DNA of 64,000 nucleotides. It comes from Ruminococcus sp. Phil11 (GTDB lineage Bacteria; Bacillota; Clostridia; Oscillospirales; Ruminococcaceae). The notes under the pieces were generated by a model. The model saw nothing but the letters and a program-made list of their open reading frames with translations, was not told the origin of the DNA and searched no databases. Position numbers and translations under genes: made by a program. The stretch's first letter is position 1. The number at the start of each line of letters is the position of its first letter. Below, piece by piece: positions 8,329-37,259 of this stretch. The stretch is from positions 91,090 through 155,089 of the forward strand of contig MSGZ01000021.1 of assembly GCA_001940925.1 (NCBI GenBank), in the 5' to 3' direction.

Positions 8329-8618
8329 TTGTGCTCCGCCTCCGTTCTGATCGCGCCGAGCCTGCAGATCTTCGCGCAGATGCCGCAGCCCTTGCAGAAA
8401 TCGTAATCAATGACGGCCTTGCCGTTCTGAATCGCGATCACGCCGTCCGGACAGTACAGATAGCACTGTTCGCAGCCGACACATCGTCCGGTATCAATGA
8501 CCGGCCGGATGCTCCGCCAGCCGCTGTTGACCGATACCAGATAGCCCGCTTCAAACGCGGTCGCCTCCGGGATCTCCGCGGCAGAAAAGGTTTTCTGTTC
8601 TCTGATGTACGGTCTCAT
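8325..8618 (-). CDS. 2-oxoacid:ferredoxin oxidoreductase, delta (2x[4Fe-4S]) subunit
   Basis: 97 aa polyferredoxin subunit with two CxxCxxCxxxC sites (CVGCEQCYLYCPDG and CKGCGICAKICRLG), preceded by an extension of about 40 residues typical of PorD. It relays electrons between the TPP subunit and soluble ferredoxin. It overlaps the gamma stop and the alpha start by 4 bases each, so the three genes are tightly coupled. Confidence 0.95.
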   Translation of the reverse strand: MRPYIREQKTFSAAEIPEATAFEAGYLVSVNSGWRSIRPVIDTGRCVGCEQCYLYCPDGVIAIQNGKAVIDYDFCKGCGICAKICRLGAIRTEAEHK

Positions 8619-9130
8619 TTCTGCACCGCCTCTCTTGCCAGCTTCACCGCGCCGGTATTGCGCGCCTGTATTTTCTGCGGCATATAGCCTTCGATCGCGC
8701 TGACTGCCTGTTCCTCTGTGATGTAATCCGACAGCGCGGACAAAATGCCGAGCATCACGGTGTTGACCGTCGGCAGATGAAATTCCGCCGCGACCGCTTC
8801 GCCGTCAAAGGTGAAGGTATCGGGGATCGGCGTCTTGGAATTGACGATGATCCTGCCGCCTTCTTTCAGCTGCGCCTGCAAAGCCGGCGCATACAGCGTA
8901 TCATCGAGCACGACGATGAAATCCGCTTTTTCGGTCTGACTGCGGTCGAGCACGGGCTTTTCATCGAGCTTCGTGAATGCCCTGACCGGTGCGCCGCGGC
9001 GTTCCGGACCGAAGGACGGAAATGCCAGCGCATAATGTGCATCATCGTTCGCGGTATATGCCGCACCGAACAGCTTTGCTGCCGTAAATGCGCCCTGTCC
9101 GCCGCGTCCGAGCCAAAGGATCTCTTTCAT
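8615..9130 (-). CDS. 2-oxoacid:ferredoxin oxidoreductase, gamma subunit
   Basis: 171 aa gamma (catalytic III) subunit, first gene of the operon. It begins MKEILWLGRGGQGAFTAAKLF (the GxGGQG motif), followed by FGPERRGAPVRAF and a VVLDDTLY region. A TAGGAG site precedes ATG. Expression starts at promoter site B 35-65 bases upstream. The complete set gamma-delta-alpha-beta is a contiguous, intact VorCDAB/PorCDAB-type enzyme. Confidence 0.93.
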   Translation of the reverse strand: MKEILWLGRGGQGAFTAAKLFGAAYTANDDAHYALAFPSFGPERRGAPVRAFTKLDEKPVLDRSQTEKADFIVVLDDTLYAPALQAQLKEGGRIIVNSKTPIPDTFTFDGEAVAAEFHLPTVNTVMLGILSALSDYITEEQAVSAIEGYMPQKIQARNTGAVKLAREAVQK

Positions 9131-9150
9131 AGTCTCAATCTCCTACCTGT

Positions 9151-9196
9151 TTGGTATGTTTCTATGATACACCGTTTTCCGCTGTTTGTCCAATAC
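9151..9196 (-). promoter_or_regulatory. oxidoreductase operon promoter with shared regulon motif (site B)
   Basis: Minus strand: CGTATTGGACAAA (-35 TGGACA), 17-base spacer, -10 TATCAT, five bases, CATACCAAAC. The leader is short with no room for an upstream ORF. Same architecture as sites A and C. Confidence 0.7.
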
Positions 9197-9216
9197 GAAA
9201 GAACGATCGTCAGCTA

Positions 9217-9732
9217 TCAGAGCATGTGCAGCTTCGGGGCATGTCTGCGGAGGACCTCATACAGCGTGACCGAAACCGCCGCGCCGAATACGCCCTGCAC
9301 GATGTTCTCCGGAACGGACAGCAGTGCCGTGGAAACAGAGCCGTACAGCAGCCCCGCAAACACCGCGTAGCCGAAAATCATCACGGTCTCCGCGGCGGCG
9401 GCACCGGCAAGCAGTGCCCGGAACGATTTTCGCTTCCCGGAAAGCCGCTTGTATACGTAATACGACAGAACCGCCATGCCCGCCTTGATGATCAGCGTGG
9501 CCGGCGCATAGACCGTATAGCCGGAGATCAGGTCGGCAAGCGCGGAGCCGATGCCCGCCGCCGCACCGCCGTACAGCGGCCCTAGGATCCATGCAGACAG
9601 ATTGACCAGAACGTCGCCCGTATTGATATAGCCCTTTGTCGGCGACGGGATCTGGATCAGCAGCGTGGCGACGGCCGTCAGTGCCGTGAGCGCACCTGCA
9701 AGCGTCAGTTTCTGAATGCGATCTGATTTCAT
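9217..9732 (-). CDS. ECF transporter S component
   Basis: 171 aa integral membrane protein with about six hydrophobic segments. The signature is IPSPTKGYINTGDVLVNLSAWILGPLYGGAAAGIGSALADL, split here by a helix break, typical of the HmpT/COG4720-like S components of energy-coupling-factor importers. It would use shared EcfA/EcfT proteins encoded elsewhere. It overlaps the lysR gene by 4 bases and closes the mccB-ahcY-mccA-lysR operon, so a methionine-, homocysteine- or other sulfur-related or PLP-type substrate is possible; this is inference from context only. Confidence 0.85.
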   Translation of the reverse strand: MKSDRIQKLTLAGALTALTAVATLLIQIPSPTKGYINTGDVLVNLSAWILGPLYGGAAAGIGSALADLISGYTVYAPATLIIKAGMAVLSYYVYKRLSGKRKSFRALLAGAAAAETVMIFGYAVFAGLLYGSVSTALLSVPENIVQGVFGAAVSVTLYEVLRRHAPKLHML

Positions 9733-10661
9733 AATGCTTCATCCTTTCCTTCCGGAATACCGAGATAGCGTTTCAGCTCCCCGATATAGATCGTCCCCGC
9801 CTTGCTGCGGAGTGTTTTTTTCAGTGTGATATAGCCGATCTCCATGGTATCCTCATCGGCTGTTTCAAACGGCACGGCGAGATAATCGCTGCCGTTCAGT
9901 TCCTCGCAGATAATGCCGGAGCAGAGCGTATAGCCGTTCAGGCCGACCATCAGATTGAGCATGGTCGCGCGGTCGTTCGCCTTGATCGTCCGCGGATATT
10001 CCGCCGTGCTGAGGATCTCCTCTGCATAGTAGAACGAGCTGTTCGCGCCCTGCTCAAAGGACAGGCACGGATACTCCGCAAGATCGTCAAAGGTGATCTT
10101 CTTCTGCTTTGCCAGCGGATGCCCCTTCCAGAGATACACAAACGGACGGCATTTCGTCAGCGGCGTAAATTCCAGACCGTTCGCGTGCAGCAGCTTCGTG
10201 ATCGCCTTGCGGTTGAAATCGCTCATGTACAGAATGCCGATCTCGCTGCGCAGAGAAGCCACATCGCTGATGACCTCGGCGGTTTTCGTCTCGCGGATCG
10301 CAAATTCATATTTTGCCGTATCAAACCGCTTGACCATATCGACAAACGCCTTGACCGCAAAGGAATAATGCTGCGTCGATACGCCGAATTTCTTTTTGAT
10401 GCTGCTTTTTGCGGCATACTTTTCCGTCAGGATATCGAACTGTCCGACGACCTGATGCGCATACTGCAGAAACTCCGCGCCGTCATTCGTGACGGTCACG
10501 CCTCTGCCGCTGCGGTTGAAGATCAGGATGCCGGTCTCCTTTTCGAGCTCCTGCACGGAGGCCGTCAGCGAGGGCTGCGAAACATAAAGCTGCTCTGCCG
10601 CCTTGTTCATCGAGCCGGTCTCCGCGATCGTCAGCGCGTATTTGAGCTGCTGCAATGTCAT
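9729..10661 (-). CDS. LysR-family transcriptional regulator
   Basis: 310 aa. N-terminal HTH reads MTLQQLKYALTIAETGSMNKAAEQLYVSQPSLTASVQELEKE, split at its turn, as in standard LTTRs; residues about 90-300 form the periplasmic-binding-like effector domain. It sits inside the reverse-transsulfuration operon, 12 bases after mccA, and overlaps the ECF S gene. It is a candidate regulator of the three motif-sharing promoters or of its own operon, as CysB/MetR/YtlI relatives are for sulfur genes. The effector is unknown. Confidence 0.92.
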   Translation of the reverse strand: MTLQQLKYALTIAETGSMNKAAEQLYVSQPSLTASVQELEKETGILIFNRSGRGVTVTNDGAEFLQYAHQVVGQFDILTEKYAAKSSIKKKFGVSTQHYSFAVKAFVDMVKRFDTAKYEFAIRETKTAEVISDVASLRSEIGILYMSDFNRKAITKLLHANGLEFTPLTKCRPFVYLWKGHPLAKQKKITFDDLAEYPCLSFEQGANSSFYYAEEILSTAEYPRTIKANDRATMLNLMVGLNGYTLCSGIICEELNGSDYLAVPFETADEDTMEIGYITLKKTLRSKAGTIYIGELKRYLGIPEGKDEAL

Positions 10662-10673
10662 AAAATCACCTCA

Positions 10674-11585
10674 TTATCCGAATAATCCTGTGCTGAAATA
10701 GCGGTCGCCGCGGTCGGGGAACACTGTGACGATATTGCCGCCGCTGACGCGCTCCGTCAGCTTCAGTACCGCCGCCATTGCCGCACCGGAGGACGAGCCC
10801 GCAAAGATGCCCTCTGTTTTTGCCAGCAGGCGGGCCGTCGAGAAGGCTTCGTCATCCGTTACCTTGATCACATCATCGACCAGCGACATATCCATCGTAT
10901 CTGCGATGAAATCATTGCCGATGCCCTCGATATTGTAGTCGCTGTGTTCGCCGCCGCCCATCGTCGAGCCGACCGGGTCAGCCAGGATGCCGCGGATACC
11001 GGGATTGCGCTCCTTCAGATAACGCAGAATGCCGGTATACGTGCCGCCGCTGCCCGCACCCGCGACAACATAGTCAATTTTGCCGTCCAGCGATTCGTAG
11101 ATCTCTCTGCCGGTCGTCTCATAATGCGCAAGCGGATTGCTCTGGTTTTTGAACTGTTCCAGCGAAATTGAGCCGGGGATCTGTGCCTTGATCTCCTCTG
11201 CCTTTTCGACCGCGCCGAGCATTCCCTTTTCACGCGGCGTATTGACGACTTCTGCGCCGAGTGCGCGCATCAAAGCCTGCTTTTCCGCGGAAAACTTCGT
11301 CGGTACGACAAAAATGATGCGGTAGCCGCGGTTCAGTGCCGCAAATGCGATGCCGAGGCCCGTATTGCCGGCAGTCGCTTCCACGATCGTGCCGCCCGCT
11401 TTGAGCAGCCCGCGCCGTTCGGCATCATTGACCATATAAAGCCCGGTTCTGTCCTTGACGCTTCCGGAGGGGTTCCACAGCTCCAGCTTTGCAAAGACGT
11501 TCACGCCCTGTTTTTGTACGATATTGCCGAGCCTGACCAGCGGCGTATGCCCGATCAGTGCCTGCATCGAATCATAATACTGCAT
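10674..11585 (-). CDS. mccA: cysteine synthase family / O-acetylserine-dependent cystathionine beta-synthase
   Basis: 303 aa fold-type II PLP enzyme. Motifs: PSGSVKDRT with the PLP lysine, EATAGNTGLGIAFAA, GSGGTYTG, and the tail KTEGIFAGSSSGAA and FPDRGDRYFSTGLF. The last features and the neighbouring mccB favour MccA, which joins homocysteine to O-acetylserine to form cystathionine, over plain CysK; the two are hard to separate by sequence. The start is set at the ATG giving MQYYDS, with GGAG 9 bases upstream. It overlaps the ahcY 3' end by 14 bases. Confidence 0.85.
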   Translation of the reverse strand: MQYYDSMQALIGHTPLVRLGNIVQKQGVNVFAKLELWNPSGSVKDRTGLYMVNDAERRGLLKAGGTIVEATAGNTGLGIAFAALNRGYRIIFVVPTKFSAEKQALMRALGAEVVNTPREKGMLGAVEKAEEIKAQIPGSISLEQFKNQSNPLAHYETTGREIYESLDGKIDYVVAGAGSGGTYTGILRYLKERNPGIRGILADPVGSTMGGGEHSDYNIEGIGNDFIADTMDMSLVDDVIKVTDDEAFSTARLLAKTEGIFAGSSSGAAMAAVLKLTERVSGGNIVTVFPDRGDRYFSTGLFG

Positions 11586-12828
11586 GTTTCTCATCTCCGT
11601 ATAGATATGCACGCTGTTCATCGGTCAGCGTGTCAATTTCGATCTGCATACCTGCGAGCTTCTGCCGCGCGACCGCTTCATCGACCGCACGCGGCACATT
11701 GTTCAGCACCGATGTGACCGTATCACGGTTTGCGATCAGCCACTCGGCACTGCGCGCCTGGATCGCGAAGCTCATGTCCATGATCTCCGCCGGATGCCCG
11801 TCACCCGCCGCAAGATTGACCAAACGCCCCTCCGCGATCACATAGACCGTCACGCCGTTCGGGAGCGTGTAGCCGGTGATATTCTGCCGCGCTTCAAACG
11901 ATCTGACCGCAAGCTTTTTCAGCCCCGCCATATCGACCTCCACATCAAAATGGCCGGCATTGGAGAGGATCGCGCCCTCGTGCATCTTCAGAAAGCTGTT
12001 TTCGGTGATGACGCGGCTGCATCCCGTGACCGTGACGAAGAAATCGCCGAGCGGTGCGGCGTCCTCCATTTTCATGACCGTGAAGCCGTCCATGACCGCT
12101 TCAATCGCTTTCACGGGGTCAACCTCGGTGACAATGACCTTTGCGCCGAGCCCCTTTGCGCGCATCGCCGCGCCCTTGCCGCACCAGCCGTAGCCCGCGA
12201 TCACGACCGTTTTGCCCGCGACGATCAGATTCGTCGTGCGGTTGATGCCGTCCCAGACGGACTGCCCCGTGCCGTAGCGGTTATCGAATAAATGCTTGCA
12301 GTCGGCGTCATTGACGAGCATCATCGGGAATTTCAGTTCGCCCGCCGCGGCCATGGCTTTCAGCCGCAGGATGCCGGTCGTCGTTTCCTCGCAGCCGCCG
12401 ATCACATTCGGAAGATATTGCGGATATTCCTGATGGATCAGCGTGACAAGGTCGCCGCCGTCGTCGATGATGAAATGCGGCTGTGCCTCGATCACGCGGC
12501 GGGTGTGCGCTTCGTATTCTTCCGGCGTAACACCGTGCCATGCGTAGACGTTCAGGCCGGAATGCACGAGTGCCGCCGCAATATCGTCCTGTGTGGACAG
12601 CGGGTTCGAGCCCGTGATATACATTTCCGCACCGCCTGCCGCCAGCACGCGGCAGAGATATGCGGTCTTTGCCTCAAGGTGAATGGACAGCGCGATCCGC
12701 TTGCCCGCAAAGGGCTTTGTCTCTGCAAATTCCGCTTCAATGCCGCGCAGCAGAGGCATATTGCCCTTGACCCACCGGATTTTCCGTTCGCCGCTCTCCC
12801 AGAGCGAAAGATCTCTGATCTCAGACAT
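11572..12828 (-). CDS. ahcY: adenosylhomocysteinase
   Basis: 418 aa NAD-dependent S-adenosylhomocysteine hydrolase, giving homocysteine and adenosine (or inosine with S-inosylhomocysteine). Motifs: SIHLEAKTAYL, CEETTTGILRLKAM, NDADCKHLFDNRYGTGQS (the catalytic Lys/Asp region), VVIAGYGWCGKGAAMRAKGLGAKV split by the NAD loop, and GHFDVEVDM. The C-terminus ends in a DEQRAYLYG stretch rather than the KPxxYRY tail of eukaryotic enzymes, as in shorter archaeal/clostridial forms. The start overlaps the mccB stop by 8 bases. In Bacillus the equivalent operon uses the nucleosidase MtnN here. Confidence 0.93.
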   Translation of the reverse strand: MSEIRDLSLWESGERKIRWVKGNMPLLRGIEAEFAETKPFAGKRIALSIHLEAKTAYLCRVLAAGGAEMYITGSNPLSTQDDIAAALVHSGLNVYAWHGVTPEEYEAHTRRVIEAQPHFIIDDGGDLVTLIHQEYPQYLPNVIGGCEETTTGILRLKAMAAAGELKFPMMLVNDADCKHLFDNRYGTGQSVWDGINRTTNLIVAGKTVVIAGYGWCGKGAAMRAKGLGAKVIVTEVDPVKAIEAVMDGFTVMKMEDAAPLGDFFVTVTGCSRVITENSFLKMHEGAILSNAGHFDVEVDMAGLKKLAVRSFEARQNITGYTLPNGVTVYVIAEGRLVNLAAGDGHPAEIMDMSFAIQARSAEWLIANRDTVTSVLNNVPRAVDEAVARQKLAGMQIEIDTLTDEQRAYLYGDEKHAVL

Positions 12829-13984
12829 TGGGTGCCGCCTTTCCGATCGCCTGTTCCAGATCGGCGAGAATGTCCGCGATATTCTCAATGCCGGTTGACA
12901 GACGGATCAGCCCGTCCGTGATGCCGACCTTTTTGCGGATCTCCGCCGGAATGGATGCGTGTGTCATCGTTGCGGGGTGGCACACAAGCGACTCCACGCC
13001 GCCGAGGCTTTCCGCGAGCATAATGAGCTGCAGGCTCTCGAAGAACCGGTTGATATCATAGCCCTCATGCAGCTCGAACGAGATCATGACGCCGCCGTTT
13101 TTCGCCTGCTTCCGGTTGATCGCATAGCCCTGCGCGTCCGGCAGGCCGGGATAATACACCGTCTTGACTGCCGGATGCTGTTTGAGATATTCCGCGGCCT
13201 TCTGCGCATTTTCAACGTGTCTGTCCATGCGGACGGCGAGCGTCTTGATGCCGCGGATCAGCAGGAACGAATCGAACGGGCCGAGCACGCCGCCGGTCGA
13301 GTTCTGGATGAACGCGAGCTTCTGCGCGAGTTCTTCGCTGTTCACGACCGCAAGCCCCGCGACGACATCGCTGTGCCCGCCGAGGTATTTCGTTGCGCTG
13401 TGCACGACAATGTCCGCACCGAGCGCAAGCGGCTTCTGCAGATACGGCGTCATGAACGTGTTATCGACAATGACGAGCAGCCCGTGCCGGTGCGAGATCT
13501 CTGCAACGGCTGCAATATCCGTGACCGTCATCAGCGGATTGGCAGGGCTCTCGATGATGACCGCCTTCGCGTCATCCGTGATCTGCGATTCGTATTTTGC
13601 AAGATCTGCGGTGTCCGCGATCGTGTACGTGATGCCGAAATGATCGAACACCTTGTCGAGCACGCGGAACGTACCGCCGTAAACATTGCTGGAGATCAGG
13701 ACGCGGTCGCCGCTTTGCAGCAGGCTCAGCACCGCGGTGATCGCCGCCATGCCGGAGCCGAACGCAAAGCCTGCATAGCCGCCCTCCAGCTCCGCGATCA
13801 GCTTTTCGAGCGCCTCTCTGGTCGGGTTGCCGGTGCGGGAATATTCGTATCCGCGCATTTTTCCGAGTCCGTCCTGCTGATAGGTCGAGGTCTGGTAGAT
13901 CGGCACATTGACCGCGCCGGTGCGTTCGTCCGTGGAAATGCCGCCGTGAATGAGGGCGGTCTCTGTATGTTCATATCTGCTCAT
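12821..13984 (-). CDS. mccB: cystathionine gamma-lyase / gamma-synthase family (MccB-like)
   Basis: 387 aa trans-sulfuration PLP enzyme. Motifs: YQTSTYQQDG, YEYSRTGNPTREALE, FGSGMAAITAVLSLL, DNTFMTPYLQKPL and the Schiff-base lysine in VVHSATKYLGGHSDV. The C-terminal LGGVESLVCHPATMTHA is complete. Context with mccA and ahcY favours gamma-lyase activity, cystathionine to cysteine plus 2-oxobutyrate, but gamma-synthase cannot be excluded. It follows the methyltransferase by 11 bases. Confidence 0.92.
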   Translation of the reverse strand: MSRYEHTETALIHGGISTDERTGAVNVPIYQTSTYQQDGLGKMRGYEYSRTGNPTREALEKLIAELEGGYAGFAFGSGMAAITAVLSLLQSGDRVLISSNVYGGTFRVLDKVFDHFGITYTIADTADLAKYESQITDDAKAVIIESPANPLMTVTDIAAVAEISHRHGLLVIVDNTFMTPYLQKPLALGADIVVHSATKYLGGHSDVVAGLAVVNSEELAQKLAFIQNSTGGVLGPFDSFLLIRGIKTLAVRMDRHVENAQKAAEYLKQHPAVKTVYYPGLPDAQGYAINRKQAKNGGVMISFELHEGYDINRFFESLQLIMLAESLGGVESLVCHPATMTHASIPAEIRKKVGITDGLIRLSTGIENIADILADLEQAIGKAAPNV

Positions 13985-13995
13985 AATGATTCTCC

Positions 13996-14895
13996 TTATT
14001 CATAATCATAGCCTGCGGTATAGGCCGCGGACAGCAGGCTGACATTTTCAAATGCTTTCATGCGGTCGGCGCGGCCGTCGAAATACTCTGCCTGCACCTT
14101 TTCCGGCGGCAGATAGGTGTCGATCTGGAAGCCCAGCGCATAGAGCGAGCGGGAAACCTCGTTGTAATCGTAGCCGCCGCGCATGTGCTCGCCGAGCGAT
14201 GCCGTGATCTGTTCCAGCCGCCGCACGCGCTCGGGGAATACGCCGGTTTTCATCGGGTAGTCAAATACAAGGACGCTTCCCGGAACGGACAGGTCTGCGA
14301 TTTGCGCAAGCGTATCCGAAAACACATCCAGCGTCAGATAATAGGTCACGCCGAGGATGCTGAAAAAGGTCGGGATCTGCGGATCAAATCCGGTTTTCAG
14401 GAGCTGCTCCGTCATGCGCTGCTTCTCAAAATCGACCGGCACAAAATGCACATTTTTCCGGATATTCCATTCCAGCTGCCGGATGCGTTCCAGCTTATAC
14501 CGCTGCGTGTCCGGGTGGTCGATCTCGTAGATCTCAATATCCGGATCGTCATTGCGGAACAGGAACGTATCCGAGCCCGCGCCGCAAATCACATACTGGA
14601 TCTTTCCGTATTTCGCTGCGAAATCATGCAGCCGGTTCTCCGCAAAATGGATGCGCGCCAGCGGGATCGGCGCAATGTATTCGGCGATGATCTGTTCGGT
14701 GTCCGCTCTGGAAAACGGAGCATCAAAGCCGTCAAAGCCGCGGCTGACCGTTTCGTACATCGCGTCATATTCCTCCTTGCCCATGAAATCAAAGGCAAGG
14801 TCGTCCTCAAAAATCTTGTCGCGTTCGTGGATCGCGTGCCACGCTCTTGCAAAGGCACAGAGCTTCGCGGTTATGCTTTCTCGTTCATCAACCAT
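13996..14895 (-). CDS. class I SAM-dependent methyltransferase (PPM/TcmP-like)
   Basis: 299 aa. The central part YVICGAGSDTFLFRN is the SAM-binding glycine loop, followed by EIYEIDHPDTQRYK, the pattern of the leucine carboxyl methyltransferase/TcmP superfamily (COG3315). ATG at 14895 is chosen because GGAGG is 4 bases before it. First structural gene after the attenuator. In B. subtilis the mccA-mccB operon also begins with a putative methyltransferase (yrrT), so a role in feeding SAH or methylating an unknown acceptor is plausible. Confidence 0.88.
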   Translation of the reverse strand: MVDERESITAKLCAFARAWHAIHERDKIFEDDLAFDFMGKEEYDAMYETVSRGFDGFDAPFSRADTEQIIAEYIAPIPLARIHFAENRLHDFAAKYGKIQYVICGAGSDTFLFRNDDPDIEIYEIDHPDTQRYKLERIRQLEWNIRKNVHFVPVDFEKQRMTEQLLKTGFDPQIPTFFSILGVTYYLTLDVFSDTLAQIADLSVPGSVLVFDYPMKTGVFPERVRRLEQITASLGEHMRGGYDYNEVSRSLYALGFQIDTYLPPEKVQAEYFDGRADRMKAFENVSLLSAAYTAGYDYE

Positions 14896-14911
14896 AAATC
14901 CTCCGGGGCAT

Positions 14912-14944
14912 AAAAACAGCGCAGAATGCCATTGCATACCGCGC
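14912..14944 (-). terminator. intrinsic terminator in the leader (attenuator)
   Basis: Minus strand GCGCGGTATGC, loop AATG, GCATTCTGCGC, then TGTTTTT. The stem has ten pairs including one G-U, and one T-T mismatch. It lies between the stop of the Cys/Met leader peptide (14967) and the ribosome site of the methyltransferase, so terminated transcripts would lack all structural genes. Confidence 0.8.
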
Positions 14945-14966
14945 GTTTTTCTTCATGTTGCATGGG

Positions 14967-15074
14967 TCATGATACATGAGAAAGCCGACATCGCTGCCCT
15001 GCCGCGTGTGTATGAGACATTCGTATTTTGTTGTGACAGTTCATACAGCACAGCATACAGCACATCGTTTTCAT
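14967..15074 (-). CDS. Cys/Met-rich leader peptide
   Basis: A 35-codon ORF with a strong ribosome site (AAGGAAAGGAG, 6 bases before ATG). It begins MKTMCCMLCCMNC and ends CRLSHVS. Six Cys and five Met in 35 residues, with five Cys and four Met in the first 13, is far beyond chance. It is the first ORF of the transcript that goes on to mccB-ahcY-mccA, genes that turn methionine into cysteine. Shortage of charged tRNA-Cys or tRNA-Met would stall the ribosome over codons 4-13 and alter the downstream terminator, as in classical amino-acid operon attenuation. Function is inferred from layout. Confidence 0.85.
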   Translation of the reverse strand: MKTMCCMLCCMNCHNKIRMSHTHAAGQRCRLSHVS

Positions 15075-15116
15075 GGCTTTTCTCCTTTCCTTACATTTCC
15101 TATCGGTTATGTATGA

Positions 15117-15145
15117 ATTATAGCACAGCAGGTCGGAATTGTCAA
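15117..15145 (-). promoter_or_regulatory. promoter of the reverse-transsulfuration operon
   Basis: Perfect consensus on the minus strand: TTGACA, 17 bases, TATAAT. Start would be near 15110, giving a leader of roughly 35 bases before the leader peptide. The surrounding bases (CCTATTGACAATTCC, TGTGCTATAAT, CATAC) partly resemble site C of the ABC importer operon. Confidence 0.9.
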
Positions 15146-15240
15146 TAGGTTCTGCCTATATTCGGGATTCTGCACAAATTTATCACAGTATTCATATATG
15201 TGAATGGGGATATAACGAATATCCGGCGCGGAACGATAAA

Positions 15241-15274
15241 AAAAGAACGCCGATTCCTGCATCAGCGTTCTTTT
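15241..15274. terminator. terminator of the ABC importer operon
   Basis: AAAAGAACGC and its complement GCGTTCTTTT around a 14-base loop; on the minus strand T-rich sequence follows. It lies 48 bases after the permease stop. Confidence 0.75.
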
Positions 15275-15321
15275 GTTTCCTTTTATTATGCTCCCGGCAC
15301 ACTTTCGCACAATGCGCCGGC

Positions 15322-16242
15322 TCAGCGCTTCCATTTCAGCATCCGCTTCTGGAAGGCGTTGAACAGGAACGTCACCGCAATGACCACAATGCCGATGACC
15401 AGCAGACCCGTGATCGTGCGCGTGTAGTCGCCGAAATCGGAGTAGTATTTGACATAATAGCCCATGCCGTCGCGCGCGGCGATCATTTCCGCAGAGGTCA
15501 GCAGGATGAACGAAACGCTCAGACCCTGATTGCAGCCGAGGAAGATCTGCGGCAGCGCAGCGGGCAGAATGATCGTGAACAGCATTTCCGGCTTCGGCAC
15601 ATTCAGCACCTTTGCGGAATCAATGATGCGCTGATCGACATGCATCACGCCGCTCATCGTGCCGGCAAAGACCGGCCAGAAGGTCGCCAGAAAGATGACG
15701 AACACCGAGACCGACTGGAATGTCGGCAGCAGCGCGATGCCGTAGGGGATATAAACGATCGGCGGGATCGAGCTGAAAAACTTGGAGATATAGGTCGCTG
15801 CGCCGCCGAGACGGGCGTTCCAGCCGAGGAACAGCCCGAGCGGAACTGCAACGGCAGATGCGAGCACAAAGCCCTTGACGGTGATGCCGAGCGAGCTGCG
15901 GATATTGATGAGAATCTTTTCCCTGTCCTCCGCGAACTGATGCAGCACCTTGCCCGGTGCCGGGAACAGCAGCGGATTCAGCACATTGAATTTTGCCGTC
16001 GCCAGAGACCAGACCGTCAGCAGCACGAAGATGAAGCCGACGATATCCAGCAGCAGCATGAGGCTTTCCTTTTTCTTGATGAGAAAGCTCAGTCCGAGCG
16101 TGACGGCCTCCAGTCCGACCGCAAAGGCGATCAGCGCGCCGGTGTACACATCCTTGTCCGATCTGTCAGGCAGAAGCTGCACGAGCAGCAAAATCACGAA
16201 CAGCAGATGCGTGACGCGGAGCAGGCGGTTCTTCAGCGTCAT
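15322..16242 (-). CDS. ABC transporter permease (TauC/SsuC-like)
   Basis: 306 aa. It has about seven to eight hydrophobic helices; the region from residue 130 (IRSSLGITVKGFVLASAVAVPLGLFLG) to 280 is the BPD_transp_1 core. The EAA loop is ILPAALPQIFLGCNQGLSVSF. Compared with ordinary TauC/SsuC it has an N-terminal addition of two or three helices (residues 1-80). Its start overlaps the ATPase stop by 4 bases. It forms the channel of an importer for sulfonate-, nitrate- or aromatic-type small acids. Confidence 0.9.
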   Translation of the reverse strand: MTLKNRLLRVTHLLFVILLLVQLLPDRSDKDVYTGALIAFAVGLEAVTLGLSFLIKKKESLMLLLDIVGFIFVLLTVWSLATAKFNVLNPLLFPAPGKVLHQFAEDREKILINIRSSLGITVKGFVLASAVAVPLGLFLGWNARLGGAATYISKFFSSIPPIVYIPYGIALLPTFQSVSVFVIFLATFWPVFAGTMSGVMHVDQRIIDSAKVLNVPKPEMLFTIILPAALPQIFLGCNQGLSVSFILLTSAEMIAARDGMGYYVKYYSDFGDYTRTITGLLVIGIVVIAVTFLFNAFQKRMLKWKR

Positions 16243-17057
16243 AGGACGACCTCCTCTCCGCCGATGCGGTTCGCCACATCCTGATAGAGCAGCGAGAGCA
16301 GACGGTTCCGGAATTTGCCGTATTCCTCGGTCTTAACAAGGTCTGCGCGGTTCCGCGGCCGCGCAAACGGCACGCTGACGATCTCATTGACCGTGCCCGG
16401 ATGCGCCGTCAGCACGACGATCTTATCCGAAAGCAGGATCGCCTCGTCGATATCATGCGTGACGAACACGACCGTCTTGCGCTTGTCCTTGTGGTCGCCC
16501 TCCCAGAGCGAGAGCAGCAGCTCCTGCAGGACAACGCGGTTTTTCGCGTCGATCGCGCTGAACGGCTCGTCCATGAGCAGGATCTCGGTGTTCATGGCCA
16601 GTGCCCGGGCGATCGCCGCGCGCTGCTGCATACCGCCCGAAAGCTGTGACGGATACTTCTTGCCGAATTCCGCCAGACCGACCTTGCCGAGAAACTCATC
16701 CGCGATCCGGAACCGCTCTCTGCGGCTGAGTTCGTGCCGCGCCTGCTTGATGCCGAACGCAATATTGCTGCGTGTGGTCATCCACGGGAACAGCGAATAA
16801 TGCTGGAACACAACGCCGCGTTCCCTGCCTGTTCCGTGCAGCGGTGCACCGTCGATCTCGACTGTGCCGCCTGCCGCCTGATACAGTCCTTCCAGAACGC
16901 TCAGCAGCGTGGATTTTCCGCAGCCGCTCGCGCCGATTACGCTGACAAATTCACCTGCGCCGACCCCGAAGGATACGTCATGCAGTGCATTGAACTTCTT
17001 GCCGCGCTCGGTATAATCAACCGTCAGGTTTTTAATCTCAATTTTATTCGTAGGCAT
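16239..17057 (-). CDS. ABC transporter ATP-binding protein (TauB/SsuB-like)
   Basis: 272 aa. Walker A GASGCGKST, Q-loop FQHYSLFPW, signature LSGGMQQRAAIARAL, Walker B ILLMDEPFSAID and H-loop VTHDIDEA. The Q-loop/signature set is that of the nitrate-taurine-sulfonate importer ATPases. The start is taken at ATG 17057 with GGAGG 9 bases upstream, overlapping the substrate-binding protein gene by 14 bases. Confidence 0.94.
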   Translation of the reverse strand: MPTNKIEIKNLTVDYTERGKKFNALHDVSFGVGAGEFVSVIGASGCGKSTLLSVLEGLYQAAGGTVEIDGAPLHGTGRERGVVFQHYSLFPWMTTRSNIAFGIKQARHELSRRERFRIADEFLGKVGLAEFGKKYPSQLSGGMQQRAAIARALAMNTEILLMDEPFSAIDAKNRVVLQELLLSLWEGDHKDKRKTVVFVTHDIDEAILLSDKIVVLTAHPGTVNEIVSVPFARPRNRADLVKTEEYGKFRNRLLSLLYQDVANRIGGEEVVL

Positions 17058-18267
17058 TGAAATGTTCCTCCAATGATTTGTAAATGTCATCAGAGCCTTC
17101 GGCGAGAATACTGTCCAGAGCCGCCTTGTAGATATCCGTATTATACAGCGGTTCAATATCGTAATCCTCTGTATAGCCGAGCTCCACGATCGTATCCTTC
17201 AGCGTCAGCGTACCCTTTTTGTCCGGGTCGGGACTGGACACGCTGTAGCCGCCGTAAACCTCTGTTTCGATAAATTCCTCGTCAATGTCGATGTACTTCT
17301 TGACATCGGCGATCGTCTTTTCATGGTTTTCCTGCGTCAGGTGATATGCCTTGAGGAACGCACGCTCCAGCGCGGTAAAGGTATTCGGATTTGCCTTGAC
17401 CGCCGCGGTCGACGCGACCTGCCGGCAGCACGGCTGATTCTCGAGTGCCTTTTCATGTGCGCAGTAGTAAACGACCTTATAGCCCTGCGATTTTGCAAGC
17501 GACGCATACGGTGAATAGACCGAAGCTGCGTCGATCGTCTGATTGGAAAGTGCCGCGTAAGCGTCCTTCTGGCTGTCGAAGTAGACGATGTTGACCTTGT
17601 CTGAACCCTCACCGATCTCAATGCCGGCATTTTTCAGCAGGATCTGCAGCTCGGCATCCTGTACGCTGTTCTTGACCGATGCGACGTTTCTGCCCTTGAG
17701 GATCTCAACGCCCTGTTCGTCCTTCTCCGCAAATTCGGACTTGATGACGTAGCCGTGGCCGTTGGTCATCGCGCCGCCGATGATCGTCACATCATGCCCC
17801 TGACTCTGGAAGGTCAGCGTCGGGACGGAGCCGATAAATGCAACGTCAAGCTTGCCGGATTCCAGACCGTTCACCAATTCGCCGGCACTCGAAAATTGCG
17901 TCAGCGTGACGTTCAGCCCCTCCTCAGCAAAATAGCCTTCCTCCGCCGCAACAAACGCAAGCAGATGCGCCGTCGAATTGAGGTAGCCGAGATTCAGGTC
18001 TGCTTTTTCCAGTGCTGCGGTCTTTGCGGCATCAGAACCGGCTTGGTCCTGCTCTTTGCAGCAATCCTTTTTGCTGTCCTCTTTGCAGCAGTCGGATTCG
18101 CCGCCCGCGCAGCAGTCCGGCACCTCAGAGCTTTCTTTGAGTGTATCGGCTGCATTGGTATTCGGTACGTTGTAGTCAGCAGCCTGTTCGGAATTGTTCA
18201 GCGCACCGCAGCCTGTCAGCAGCGCAAGCGATGCGAGAACGGAGATTGCCTTGATTATGTTTTTCAT
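17044..18267 (-). CDS. ABC importer substrate-binding lipoprotein with CC-rich linker
   Basis: 407 aa. Lipobox LALLTGC (Cys near residue 20), so anchored to the outer face of the membrane. Residues about 50-75 hold three Cys-Cys pairs separated by six or seven hydrophilic residues (DCCAGGESD, DCCKEDSKKD, DCCKEQ), then the NMT1/SsuA-like binding domain (LNLGYLNSTAHLLAFVAAEEG, GKLDVAFIGSVPTL). A fourth pair (QPCCRQ) lies in the domain. Such a poly-CC linker is unusual for this family and could bind metal, sense redox state or be a sulfur-availability checkpoint in translation. ATG 18267 follows AAAGGTGA. Confidence 0.9.
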   Translation of the reverse strand: MKNIIKAISVLASLALLTGCGALNNSEQAADYNVPNTNAADTLKESSEVPDCCAGGESDCCKEDSKKDCCKEQDQAGSDAAKTAALEKADLNLGYLNSTAHLLAFVAAEEGYFAEEGLNVTLTQFSSAGELVNGLESGKLDVAFIGSVPTLTFQSQGHDVTIIGGAMTNGHGYVIKSEFAEKDEQGVEILKGRNVASVKNSVQDAELQILLKNAGIEIGEGSDKVNIVYFDSQKDAYAALSNQTIDAASVYSPYASLAKSQGYKVVYYCAHEKALENQPCCRQVASTAAVKANPNTFTALERAFLKAYHLTQENHEKTIADVKKYIDIDEEFIETEVYGGYSVSSPDPDKKGTLTLKDTIVELGYTEDYDIEPLYNTDIYKAALDSILAEGSDDIYKSLEEHFNAYE

Positions 18268-18284
18268 GATATTCACCTTTCTTA

Positions 18285-18340
18285 TTTTCAGATTTCAGAA
18301 TGCGAAAGCAGCTTCAGCAGAATCGCATTCGCTCTGAAAA
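18285..18340 (-). promoter_or_regulatory. large leader stem-loop upstream of the ABC importer
   Basis: Two nested perfect 8-bp helices: TTTTCAGA with TCTGAAAA outside, GAATGCGA with TCGCATTC inside. It overlaps the last third and the stop codon of the upstream ORF at 18314-18367 and ends 9 bases before the AAAGGTGA ribosome site. No T tract follows, so it is more likely a translational or processing element than a terminator. Confidence 0.6.
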
Positions 18341-18367
18341 GGTGAGATAAACAGTTTTCGTTTTCAT
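18314..18367 (-). CDS. 17-codon upstream ORF ending Met-Arg-Phe-Cys-stop
   Basis: ATG preceded by GGGAG at 9 bases; the peptide is MKTKTVYLTFSERMRFC. It is the first ORF on the importer transcript and its last codons lie inside the large stem-loop, so ribosome progress through the final Cys codon could control the structure. It has only one Cys, so the case is much weaker than for the leader at 14967-15074. Confidence 0.45.
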   Translation of the reverse strand: MKTKTVYLTFSERMRFC

Positions 18368-18385
18368 CGGATTCACTCCCTGTGT

Positions 18386-18430
18386 TTGGTATGTGTATAT
18401 CATAGCACACCTATAGGAATTTGTCCAATA
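18386..18430 (-). promoter_or_regulatory. ABC importer promoter with shared regulon motif (site C)
   Basis: Minus strand: CGTATTGGACAAA (-35 TGGACA), 17-base spacer, -10 TATGAT, five bases, CATACCAAAC. It matches sites A and B in both sequence and spacing. Confidence 0.7.
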
Positions 18431-18480
18431 CGGAAACGTGATAGGCAGTTATCGGAAAAAGCTATGGATCGCCGCATTGT

Positions 18481-18528
18481 AATCAAAAGCAGAGGTACCG
18501 CGTGAAAGCCGTACCTCTGCTTTTGATT
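18481..18528. terminator. bidirectional terminator
   Basis: Perfect 18-bp inverted repeat (AATCAAAAGCAGAGGTAC and complement) around a 12-base loop. It lies after the stop of the membrane protein gene at 18611 and insulates it from the importer promoter. Confidence 0.8.
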
Positions 18529-18610
18529 TATCCGATCGTTTTGTTCCGAACCGGCTGCACGCTGCGCCGGATCCCCCGGAGGGGACCCGCAGCCGCCGCT
18601 GTTCACAGGC

Positions 18611-19132
18611 TTATTCGTAACCCTTTGCCTTTTCGGGATAGTTCTCCTCGATATACCGGTAAAGCTTCATCAGCTGCACATTGTCAAAGCAGCGGCGGAT
18701 GCACTGCTCCGCGATCGGGGGCGCGAGACGCTCCCGCAGATCCTTTGTCTTATAGGATGCAGTATTTCCGCGGTAAAACAGCAGGTGAAAGATGTAGCAT
18801 GTTCCGCCGCCTCTGGTCCTGCAGGAGCCGAGCTTATAGGTGACGGCATAGAAATCCTGAATGTCGAGCTTCCAGAACAGGAACAGCCACTGACATTTTA
18901 TGATGCTGCCCTCGCCGAAGGTCAGCCTGGTTTTGACGACGGAACAGCAGATGATGCCGATGAAGAATGCGCCGAAGATCACAAGCGCGGCGATCATCTC
19001 CGGCACGCCCGTATGCGTTTGGGTTTTCAGCGTGAACGACACGCCCAACGAGATGATCATGAGGACGCACATTGCGATATCCACGCAATGCGGCACCTGC
19101 TTGATTTTGATGCGGATAATCTTGTTTTCCAT
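18611..19132 (-). CDS. membrane protein with PH-like domain, function unknown
   Basis: 173 aa. Two hydrophobic helices (about residues 17-34 and 45-65) are followed by a soluble region beginning RLTFGEGSIIKCQWLFLFWKLDIQDFYAVTY, split at its strand breaks, whose pattern (start of a PH-type barrel after two helices) recalls bacterial PH-domain membrane proteins. I do not recognise a specific family. It lies 45 bases downstream of the omega-amidase gene in the same direction and is probably co-transcribed. Confidence 0.8.
   Translation of the reverse strand: MENKIIRIKIKQVPHCVDIAMCVLMIISLGVSFTLKTQTHTGVPEMIAALVIFGAFFIGIICCSVVKTRLTFGEGSIIKCQWLFLFWKLDIQDFYAVTYKLGSCRTRGGGTCYIFHLLFYRGNTASYKTKDLRERLAPPIAEQCIRRCFDNVQLMKLYRYIEENYPEKAKGYE

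Positions 19133-37183: not shown

Positions 37184-37259
<76 letters not shown>

Follow-up and report, generated by a model that had tools for sequence, protein, structure and literature searches.

Attenuators of the trp and his type operate by a four-segment logic, in which the leader RNA pairs as 1:2, 2:3, or 3:4. The yrrT-mtnN-mccAB operon of Bacillus subtilis is repressed by CymR and is not known to have an attenuator. UbiG belongs to a methyltransferase family other than LCM.

For cysteine genes of Firmicutes, the available text of one study describes control via T-boxes, S-boxes, CymR, and LysR regulators (PMC2940859). The same text assigns methionine-to-cysteine conversion to the ubiG-mccBA(-luxS) operon of Clostridium acetobutylicum and C. 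perfringens, and in C. perfringens ascribes the induction of ubiG-mccBA by cysteine shortage to a T-box leader (PMC2940859). Leaderless, cysteine-responsive polycysteine uORFs are described for mycobacteria in the available parts of two papers that credit them to Canestrari et al. 2020 (PMC13236596, PMC9094748). Leader peptides with Cys runs lie 5' of cys/cbs operons in Actinobacteria, and the available part of that report states that no conserved terminator hairpins were found in Mycobacterium (PMC1262725). In Rhodobacterales, ribosome-mediated attenuation is proposed, in the available part of the source, for the uORFC-8-2 motif 5' of cysS (PMC8632094). The authors of the work on the Bacilli His leader state, in its available part, that they knew of no leader-peptide systems shown before outside Proteobacteria and Actinobacteria (PMC2965389), and a leucine-rich attenuator peptide is described in the available text on Staphylococcus aureus (PMC5794164). 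Our search of the open-licence literature found no Cys leader peptide in Clostridia or for the methionine-to-cysteine pathway.

Here we describe a Cys-codon leader in the window, the whole stretch of 64,000 nucleotides of Ruminococcus sp. Phil11 DNA that was analyzed. Judged by comparison of related sequences, this leader is very probably a ribosome-mediated transcription attenuator that responds to the supply of cysteine.

Architecture of the Leader Locus

The preliminary description of this DNA had proposed a promoter, a ribosome site, a 35-codon ORF, and a terminator ahead of an operon with the order methyltransferase-mccB-ahcY-mccA-lysR-ECF. All of these were located on the minus strand, and profile searches returned gene identities that match the proposed order. 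The leader locus comprises the following features.

15117..15145, minus strand: consensus promoter TTGACA-N17-TATAAT, with 12/12 consensus matches
15082..15086, minus strand: AGGAG Shine-Dalgarno sequence of the leader ORF, 7 bases 5' of its ATG, identified from the sequence
14967..15074, minus strand: leader ORF of 35 codons, starting MKTMCCMLCCMNC and in full MKTMCCMLCCMNCHNKIRMSHTHAAGQRCRLSHVS, from the ORF listing and Cys-cluster orthologues
14912..14944, minus strand: rho-independent terminator GCGCGGTATGC-AATG-GCATTCTGCGC followed by TTTTT, -15.1 kcal/mol, with one T-T mismatch
14900..14904, minus strand: GGAGG Shine-Dalgarno sequence of the methyltransferase gene, identified from the sequence

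The promoter at 15145-15117 is the sole 12/12 match among the nine listed in 8500-18700. Among 22 Ruminococcus-type leaders, TTGACA is present in 21 and TATAAT likewise in 21, with at most one mismatch per promoter in 22/22. The terminator at 14944-14912 did not appear in the output of a generic terminator scan of the window region. A short ORF with a Shine-Dalgarno sequence and an intrinsic terminator thus precedes the first structural gene, as in attenuators of the trp/his type. The SsuA/B/C-like ABC genes upstream are closed by a terminator of their own (15274-15241, minus strand). Among them, the SsuA-like sulfonate-binding lipoprotein (17044-18276, minus strand) has a Cys-rich linker, DCCAGGESDCCKEDSKKDCCKEQDQ, past its signal region, which is odd for a sulfur-uptake protein.

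The Operon and Its Predicted Pathway

Six genes follow the leader.

13996..14895, minus strand: LCM-family SAM-dependent methyltransferase, operon gene 1 (PF04072, E 3e-40; TIGR00027)
12821..13984, minus strand: MccB-like cystathionine/homocysteine gamma-lyase (PF01053)
11572..12888, minus strand: AhcY, S-adenosylhomocysteine hydrolase (TIGR00936, over cut-off; the listed frame starts 5' of the likely start)
10674..11621, minus strand: MccA-like cystathionine beta-synthase of the CysK/CysM fold (PF00291; near cysK models, below their cut-offs)
9729..10661, minus strand: LysR-family regulator (PF00126, PF03466)
9217..9732, minus strand: ECF transporter S component (PF07155, PF12822)

The best NCBIfam match of the MccB-like protein is the cystathionine gamma-lyase/homocysteine desulfhydrase model, at 569 bits and therefore below its cut-off of 594. 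The homologues of mccB and mccA adjoin the methyltransferase gene, which is the arrangement of a methionine-to-cysteine operon. PADLOC returned no match that would give the methyltransferase a role in a defence system. The predicted route would run from SAM to SAH by the LCM methyltransferase, to homocysteine by AhcY, to cystathionine by MccA, and to cysteine by MccB; in some relatives, LuxS, alone or together with a nucleosidase gene, would take AhcY's step to homocysteine.

Gene content varies around this core. The R. flavefaciens-type loci L029-L031 and L033 carry the methyltransferase, mccB, mccA, and lysR in the same order, and ahcY is absent. A cysK-like gene stands 5' of the leader in seven loci of other genera or families (L053, L054, L055, L061, L063, L069, and L070), and the genes 3' of the methyltransferase in these loci vary among MetK, LuxS, a PNP_UDP_1 nucleosidase, mccB, mccA, and lysR. 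L079 has the order methyltransferase-MetK-LuxS-nucleosidase-mccB-mccA-lysR. In L078 (5712-7832, minus strand), the methyltransferase and MetK share one 706-residue ORF (LCM at 14-203, MetK at 308-682), which is either a natural fusion or a draft-assembly error. Because some relatives add MetK, LuxS, and nucleosidase genes, one has the MetK fusion, and the window genus has AhcY, the methyltransferase is most likely the SAH-generating step of the pathway.

Four loci (L037-L039 and L042) gave no mccB match 3' of the methyltransferase in the available stretch. In L037 (3755-9164), the Cys leader and methyltransferase are followed by an NlpA-type lipoprotein, an octopine-dehydrogenase-like protein, an aminotransferase, and an ABC ATPase-like match; in L042 (7965-13497), they are followed by an NlpA-type lipoprotein, genes sized like those of L037, and an ABC ATPase-like match. 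This gene content without mccB suggests that a transport or salvage variant of the operon exists.

The operon-encoded LysR protein could itself act near the promoter, where two further elements are found.

15145..15159, minus strand: inverted repeat ATAGG-N5-CCTAT over the -35 box, candidate operator, identified from the sequence
15099..15106, minus strand: CCGATAGG element just 3' of the expected transcription start, like half of the -35 repeat, in 21/22 leaders

At the -35 repeat, CTATTGAC is present in all 22 Ruminococcus-type leaders and the full CCTATTGAC in 15 of them, as well as in all three Lachnospiraceae leaders tested; the left half is more variable. The repeat is possibly the site of the LysR protein. 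That the operon is controlled chiefly by this protein, with the leader minor or decayed, would fit the conserved right half, the overlap with the -35 box, and the presence of lysR within the operon. We nevertheless regard such a reading as improbable: the leader is kept in the seven loci in which the methyltransferase lies 3' of a same-strand cysK-like gene (an internal promoter is possible there), and LysR control and attenuation by the leader can coexist.

Distribution of the Leader

A Cys-cluster leader was found at 39 of 41 orthologous loci in at least seven families of Clostridia. Both misses coincide with contig ends: L032 has no leader in its 147 upstream bases, and the contig of L035 begins within mccB. 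Duplicate contigs (L019-L028, L036, L040, and L041) were counted only once. Within the window genus, 18 of 30 genomes carry the methyltransferase, and the leader lies 5' of it in 18/18. Named genomes yielded 24 loci when scanned; once copies were removed, five R. flavefaciens-type and six Lachnospiraceae loci were new. The leader stands immediately 5' of the methyltransferase in four of the five R. flavefaciens-type loci and in four of the six Lachnospiraceae loci, the remaining two of the latter being the contig end of L035 and L034, where the leader is elsewhere. In L034, a leader with five consecutive Cys codons and a weak ribosome site heads mccB-mccA-methyltransferase-lysR, lying 5' of mccB. 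Wider searches covered 295 order, 391 class, and 197 family genomes, together with the families of three matches (11, 38, and 200 genomes). They returned 12 further methyltransferase orthologues at 47-65% identity, every one with a Cys-cluster leader: 4/4 in other genera of the window's family and 8/8 in other families (six families). The methyltransferase is scarce beyond the genus; for example, 9 of the 295 order genomes, the window's own included, have it at E 1e-40.

The association of leader and operon was also approached from the leader side. A profile HMM was built from 22 leader peptides, the 18 of the genus plus four more. It gave one strong match per genome (E 7.5e-17 to 1.4e-7) among the 18 of the genus that bear the methyltransferase, no match below E 0.011 in the 12 that lack it, and no second leader copy in any of the 30 (next best E 0.0087). 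Because the HMM was trained on leaders that it recovers, only its misses and the single-copy result are informative. A strict finder, which required a Cys-cluster ORF, a Shine-Dalgarno sequence, and a terminator on either strand of the 24 loci and the window, returned 19 matches, all just 5' of a methyltransferase gene; it overlooked five leaders recognised by eye (L034, L041, L073, L075, and L076). No Cys-cluster ORF was present in the 450 bases upstream of six distant methyltransferases (32-37% identity), and two mccBA operons that lack the methyltransferase (in G003 and in G009) have no Cys leader. These absences indicate that the leader tracks the orthologous methyltransferase operon. Of the two mccBA operons that lack both methyltransferase and Cys leader, L101 (G009:C19) and L102 (G003:C44), the one in G003 occurs beside the leader-bearing operon. 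Both have GAAAACGTTCTCA-like repeats 5' of them, which we take to resemble a LacI/CcpA-type site.

In the first terminator survey, a hairpin and T-tract separated ORF and gene in 26/26 leaders. Among the remaining 13, they were found in 9 and then in 2 more (L069 and L070); those of L053 were assigned by hand, and the T-tract of L055 is interrupted. The leader ORF of L011 (G002:C126) has no stop ahead of the terminator and continues to the ribosome site of the methyltransferase. The leader peptide matched no NCBIfam model at E 0.001. Its conserved ORF and good Shine-Dalgarno sequence would also suit a small functional Cys-rich protein, such as a metal or thiol chaperone, that is merely encoded first, with the hairpin serving as an ordinary polar terminator. 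That explanation is very hard to sustain, given that the hairpin and T-tract of the 26/26 leaders are matched by an antiterminator across families and that, between families, the peptide sequence is unconserved except for Cys.

Cysteine versus Methionine as the Signal

At least three Cys residues fall within six residues in 38 of the 39 leaders, and L018 has two. Relatives thus conserve a run of codons for the product of the pathway, as trp/his-type attenuators do. Outside the Ruminococcus type, the motifs include LCCCCM, DCCCCC, CPCCCC, CFCCC, CCCCPCC, and CCCIACC, and both TGC and TGT are used as leader Cys codons. Non-conservation of the ORF or its Cys codons in relatives had been proposed as grounds for rejecting the leader; the comparison shows both to be conserved. 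A transcription start 3' of 14967 had been the other proposed ground; against it stands, indirectly, the promoter 5' of the ORF, which 22/22 Ruminococcus-type leaders retain. In this comparison, cysteine is the conserved signal of the leader family.

The preliminary description went further and held that the leader responds to Cys and Met together. Two or more Met codons surround the Cys cluster in 22/22 Ruminococcus-type leaders versus 0/17 others. Because these codons are confined to Ruminococcus-type leaders, dual counting of Cys and Met is not how these leaders work in general. The comparison across Clostridia gives good support to attenuation of the reverse-transsulfuration operon, and the dual form of attenuation does not extend beyond the window clade. 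Within that clade, the leader could still count both, so that a stall at either codon would open the operon as a signal of sulfur-amino-acid starvation. The Met codons persist in all 22 leaders (18 of the genus and 4 of the R. flavefaciens type) despite otherwise diverged peptides, and the R. flavefaciens type keeps them even though L030, one of its two leaders tested, has a weak hairpin 1:2 (-14.1, against -22.7 in L033). We consider such dual sensing unlikely. Besides their absence from the 17 leaders outside the clade, the Met codons of the 22 may reflect one ancestor, the ATG codons of the window genus also fall inside the conserved hairpin 1:2 and take part in it, and opening a Met-consuming operon upon Met shortage would be counterproductive.

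Alternative RNA Pairings

The leader RNA of the window can be divided into four segments.

15049..15067, minus strand: segment 1, the RNA stretch that carries the MCCML codons and forms the 5' side of the anti-antiterminator hairpin (RNAalifold, 15 leaders)
14986..15014, minus strand: segment 2, CATACACACGCGGCAG...GCGATGTCGG, of which 14986-15006 pairs with segment 1
15003-15014, minus strand: candidate antiterminator strand CATACACACGCG within segment 2, when freed
14934..14945, minus strand: segment 3, terminator 5' arm CGCGCGGTATGC (arm 14934-14944), candidate partner of segment 2
14912..14929, minus strand: segment 4, terminator 3' arm GCATTCTGCGC (14919-14929) and U-tract (14912-14916)

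The RNAalifold consensus of 15 window-genus leaders contains hairpin 1:2, which spans the MCCML codons, as well as terminator 3:4, and the terminator stem shows compensatory changes in these 15. Hairpin 1:2 is also recovered in a matched-pair test of 22 leaders (p 0.003), as expected for the trp/his type.

Across the window-genus leaders, between positions 97 and 123 as numbered in L001, third codon positions are invariant in 5/9 cases versus 9/18 for first and second positions. Because third positions are as conserved as the first and second, the constraint on the post-Cys stretch lies on RNA rather than on peptide. This result bears on nascent-peptide arrest, in which the Cys-rich peptide itself, or its metal or redox state, would stall the ribosome in place of a lack of Cys-tRNA. 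Metal binding or a response to redox is conceivable for so dense a Cys cluster, and an RC near the C-terminus is invariant in the 22 Ruminococcus-type leaders. Arrest of this kind is nonetheless quite improbable: the downstream part of the window-genus leaders points to RNA, only the Cys cluster is kept across families while flanking residues differ, and the first cluster Cys falls anywhere from codon 3 to codon 33 of ORFs that span 15 to 53 codons (L011, without a stop, excluded). Stalling for want of Cys-tRNA, the reading we favor, would depend on alternative pairing of the RNA.

Evidence for the antiterminator 2:3 comes from divergent leaders. Across 22 of them, the post-Cys stretch of a leader pairs better, on the whole, with the terminator arm of that leader than with the arms of others (0/20,000 permutations), and with dinucleotide shuffling the centred score of -2.91 versus -0.87 (sd 0.51) beats all 60 sets. 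Without the seven window-genus leaders, the signal rises (15 leaders, -3.82 versus -0.90, sd 0.51). The antiterminator is clearest in Lachnospiraceae, where compensating changes on the two strands preserve the helix in L037 and L042 (ACTCGGGCA:TGCCCGAGT in L037 and CTCCC.GGCAT:ATGCC.GGGAG in L042) and only 2 of 400 shuffles do as well as either leader. Taken together, the leaders thus show the mutually exclusive 2:3 and 3:4 pairings of the trp/his type. In the window genus alone (18 leaders), the 2:3 helix is no better than shuffled (Fisher p 0.69, 1/18 below 0.05), and a simple antiterminator duplex test gives no signal there; it takes a comparison of divergent leaders to bring the signal out. 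For leaders outside the genus, the duplex test gave Fisher p 0.015, a value that includes wrong terminator assignments for L053, L055, and L069. The terminators of these three were set by hand, and in that form the first two entered the matched and shuffle tests and all three the stalled folding. L001 ranks 12th of 22 in its own row of the matched test, in which L001, L006, and L015 of the window genus as well as L054, L062, L067, and L068 have no good antiterminator. Because the 2:3 helix is not significant in the window genus, the antiterminator step of the window's own leader rests on family resemblance. The trp/his-type layout of the preliminary description is thus well supported as leader-peptide attenuation by the leader, the terminator, and the antiterminator of the divergent set, and the alternative antiterminator fold that it suggested looking for is seen across that set and is not significant within the genus alone.

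In 35 of 38 complete leaders folded in the stalled state, the terminator has a probability above one half. Because the terminator is favored in the full-length stalled fold, read-through would require the antiterminator to form first. Segment-3 pairing in the 18 genus leaders is 0.68 stalled versus 0.53 unstalled, a modest difference from a folding run without shuffle control, and most leaders change in the expected direction between the two states, again without shuffle control.

Proposed Mechanism

Our studies allow us to propose how the leader may operate. When Cys-tRNA is ample, the ribosome would pass the Cys codons, and hairpin 1:2 or the ribosome itself would block segment 2 from segment 3. 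With segment 2 withheld, the 3:4 terminator would form, and transcription would end ahead of the methyltransferase gene. Under a shortage of Cys-tRNA, it would instead halt on the Cys codons as the ribosome reaches them and mask segment 1. Segment 2 would then be free to pair with segment 3, the terminator would not form, and the operon would be transcribed. The leader, its Cys cluster, the terminator, hairpin 1:2, and, across the divergent set, the antiterminator are features of the compared sequences. From them we infer ribosome stalling, read-through, and cysteine as the signal in vivo, and from the gene neighborhood the methyltransferase as the source of SAH.

A broader picture can be put forward tentatively, and we hold it somewhat less likely to be right than wrong. 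It is that of a cysteine-attenuated "methionine burner" found throughout Clostridia, in which the LCM methyltransferase would be the committed SAM-demethylating step feeding cysteine synthesis and its methyl product would be incidental. The fullest form would have its own MetK, LuxS, and nucleosidase. Control would be exerted at the methyltransferase by Cys-codon leaders that replace the Clostridium T-box, and the Ruminococcus leader, having gained Met codons, may read the Met/Cys pair.

If the proposed mechanism is correct, an attenuator on an equivalent operon in several families of Clostridia would clearly exemplify how one sensing RNA can replace another. Adjacency, the MetK fusion, and shared control would tie an orphan LCM-family methyltransferase to reverse transsulfuration, so that a gene whose annotation says no more than "SAM-dependent methyltransferase" acquires a role that can be tested. 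The leader would also offer a direct sequence read-out of cysteine limitation in bacteria of the rumen and gut.

Comparison with Known Systems

Known sensing elements were sought at these loci. In the window, no Rfam family (T-box, SAM riboswitch, or other) reached its gathering score except a tRNA at 37184; none did so in 19 related loci, and the two mccBA loci without the methyltransferase likewise have no Rfam elements. T-box and SAM-riboswitch searches covered the window's own genome. It has no T-box (RF00230) 5' of the operon; five T-box-like matches, all below the family cut-off, lie elsewhere, near valS, leuA, an AMP-binding protein, trpE, and a trpB-like gene. Neither does a SAM (S-box) riboswitch (RF00162) precede the operon, the sole match in this genome being on contig C24. 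The mycobacterial polycysteine uORF type, which is leaderless and has no conserved terminator hairpin, does not describe this leader, which has both a Shine-Dalgarno sequence and a terminator.

Like yrrT-mtnN-mccAB of B. subtilis, the present operon combines a methyltransferase, SAH recycling, and mccAB homologues; it differs in that the B. subtilis operon is under CymR repression and is not known to have an attenuator. The methyltransferase is of the LCM family (PF04072), whereas UbiG of the Clostridium operons is of another. The leader resembles trp/his-type attenuators in that an ORF rich in codons for the pathway's amino acid lies 5' of a terminator. From the trp/his leaders, and from the Bacilli His and S. 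aureus leucine leaders as described in the available parts of the sources, it differs in amino acid, genes, and lineage (PMC2965389, PMC5794164). With the leaders of mycobacteria and other Actinobacteria, it shares runs of Cys codons in short ORFs 5' of cysteine genes; unlike the leaderless mycobacterial ORFs, as far as the available text describes them, it has a Shine-Dalgarno sequence, an intrinsic terminator, and an antiterminator (PMC1262725, PMC13236596, PMC9094748). The uORFC-8-2 motif, compared here by its description in the available text and not by sequence, is similar in having two tandem Cys codons in a stem-located uORF followed by an intrinsic terminator, and differs in belonging to Alphaproteobacteria, in preceding a cysteinyl-tRNA synthetase gene, and in its other gene context (PMC8632094). 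Closest in gene content is the Clostridium ubiG-mccBA operon, which, in the available text, likewise has a SAM-dependent methyltransferase gene followed by mccB, mccA, and sometimes luxS (PMC2940859). There the sensor is a Cys-specific T-box, accompanied by an S-box antisense RNA or by VirR/VirX, whereas here a Cys-codon leader ORF occupies that position and no T-box is present (PMC2940859).
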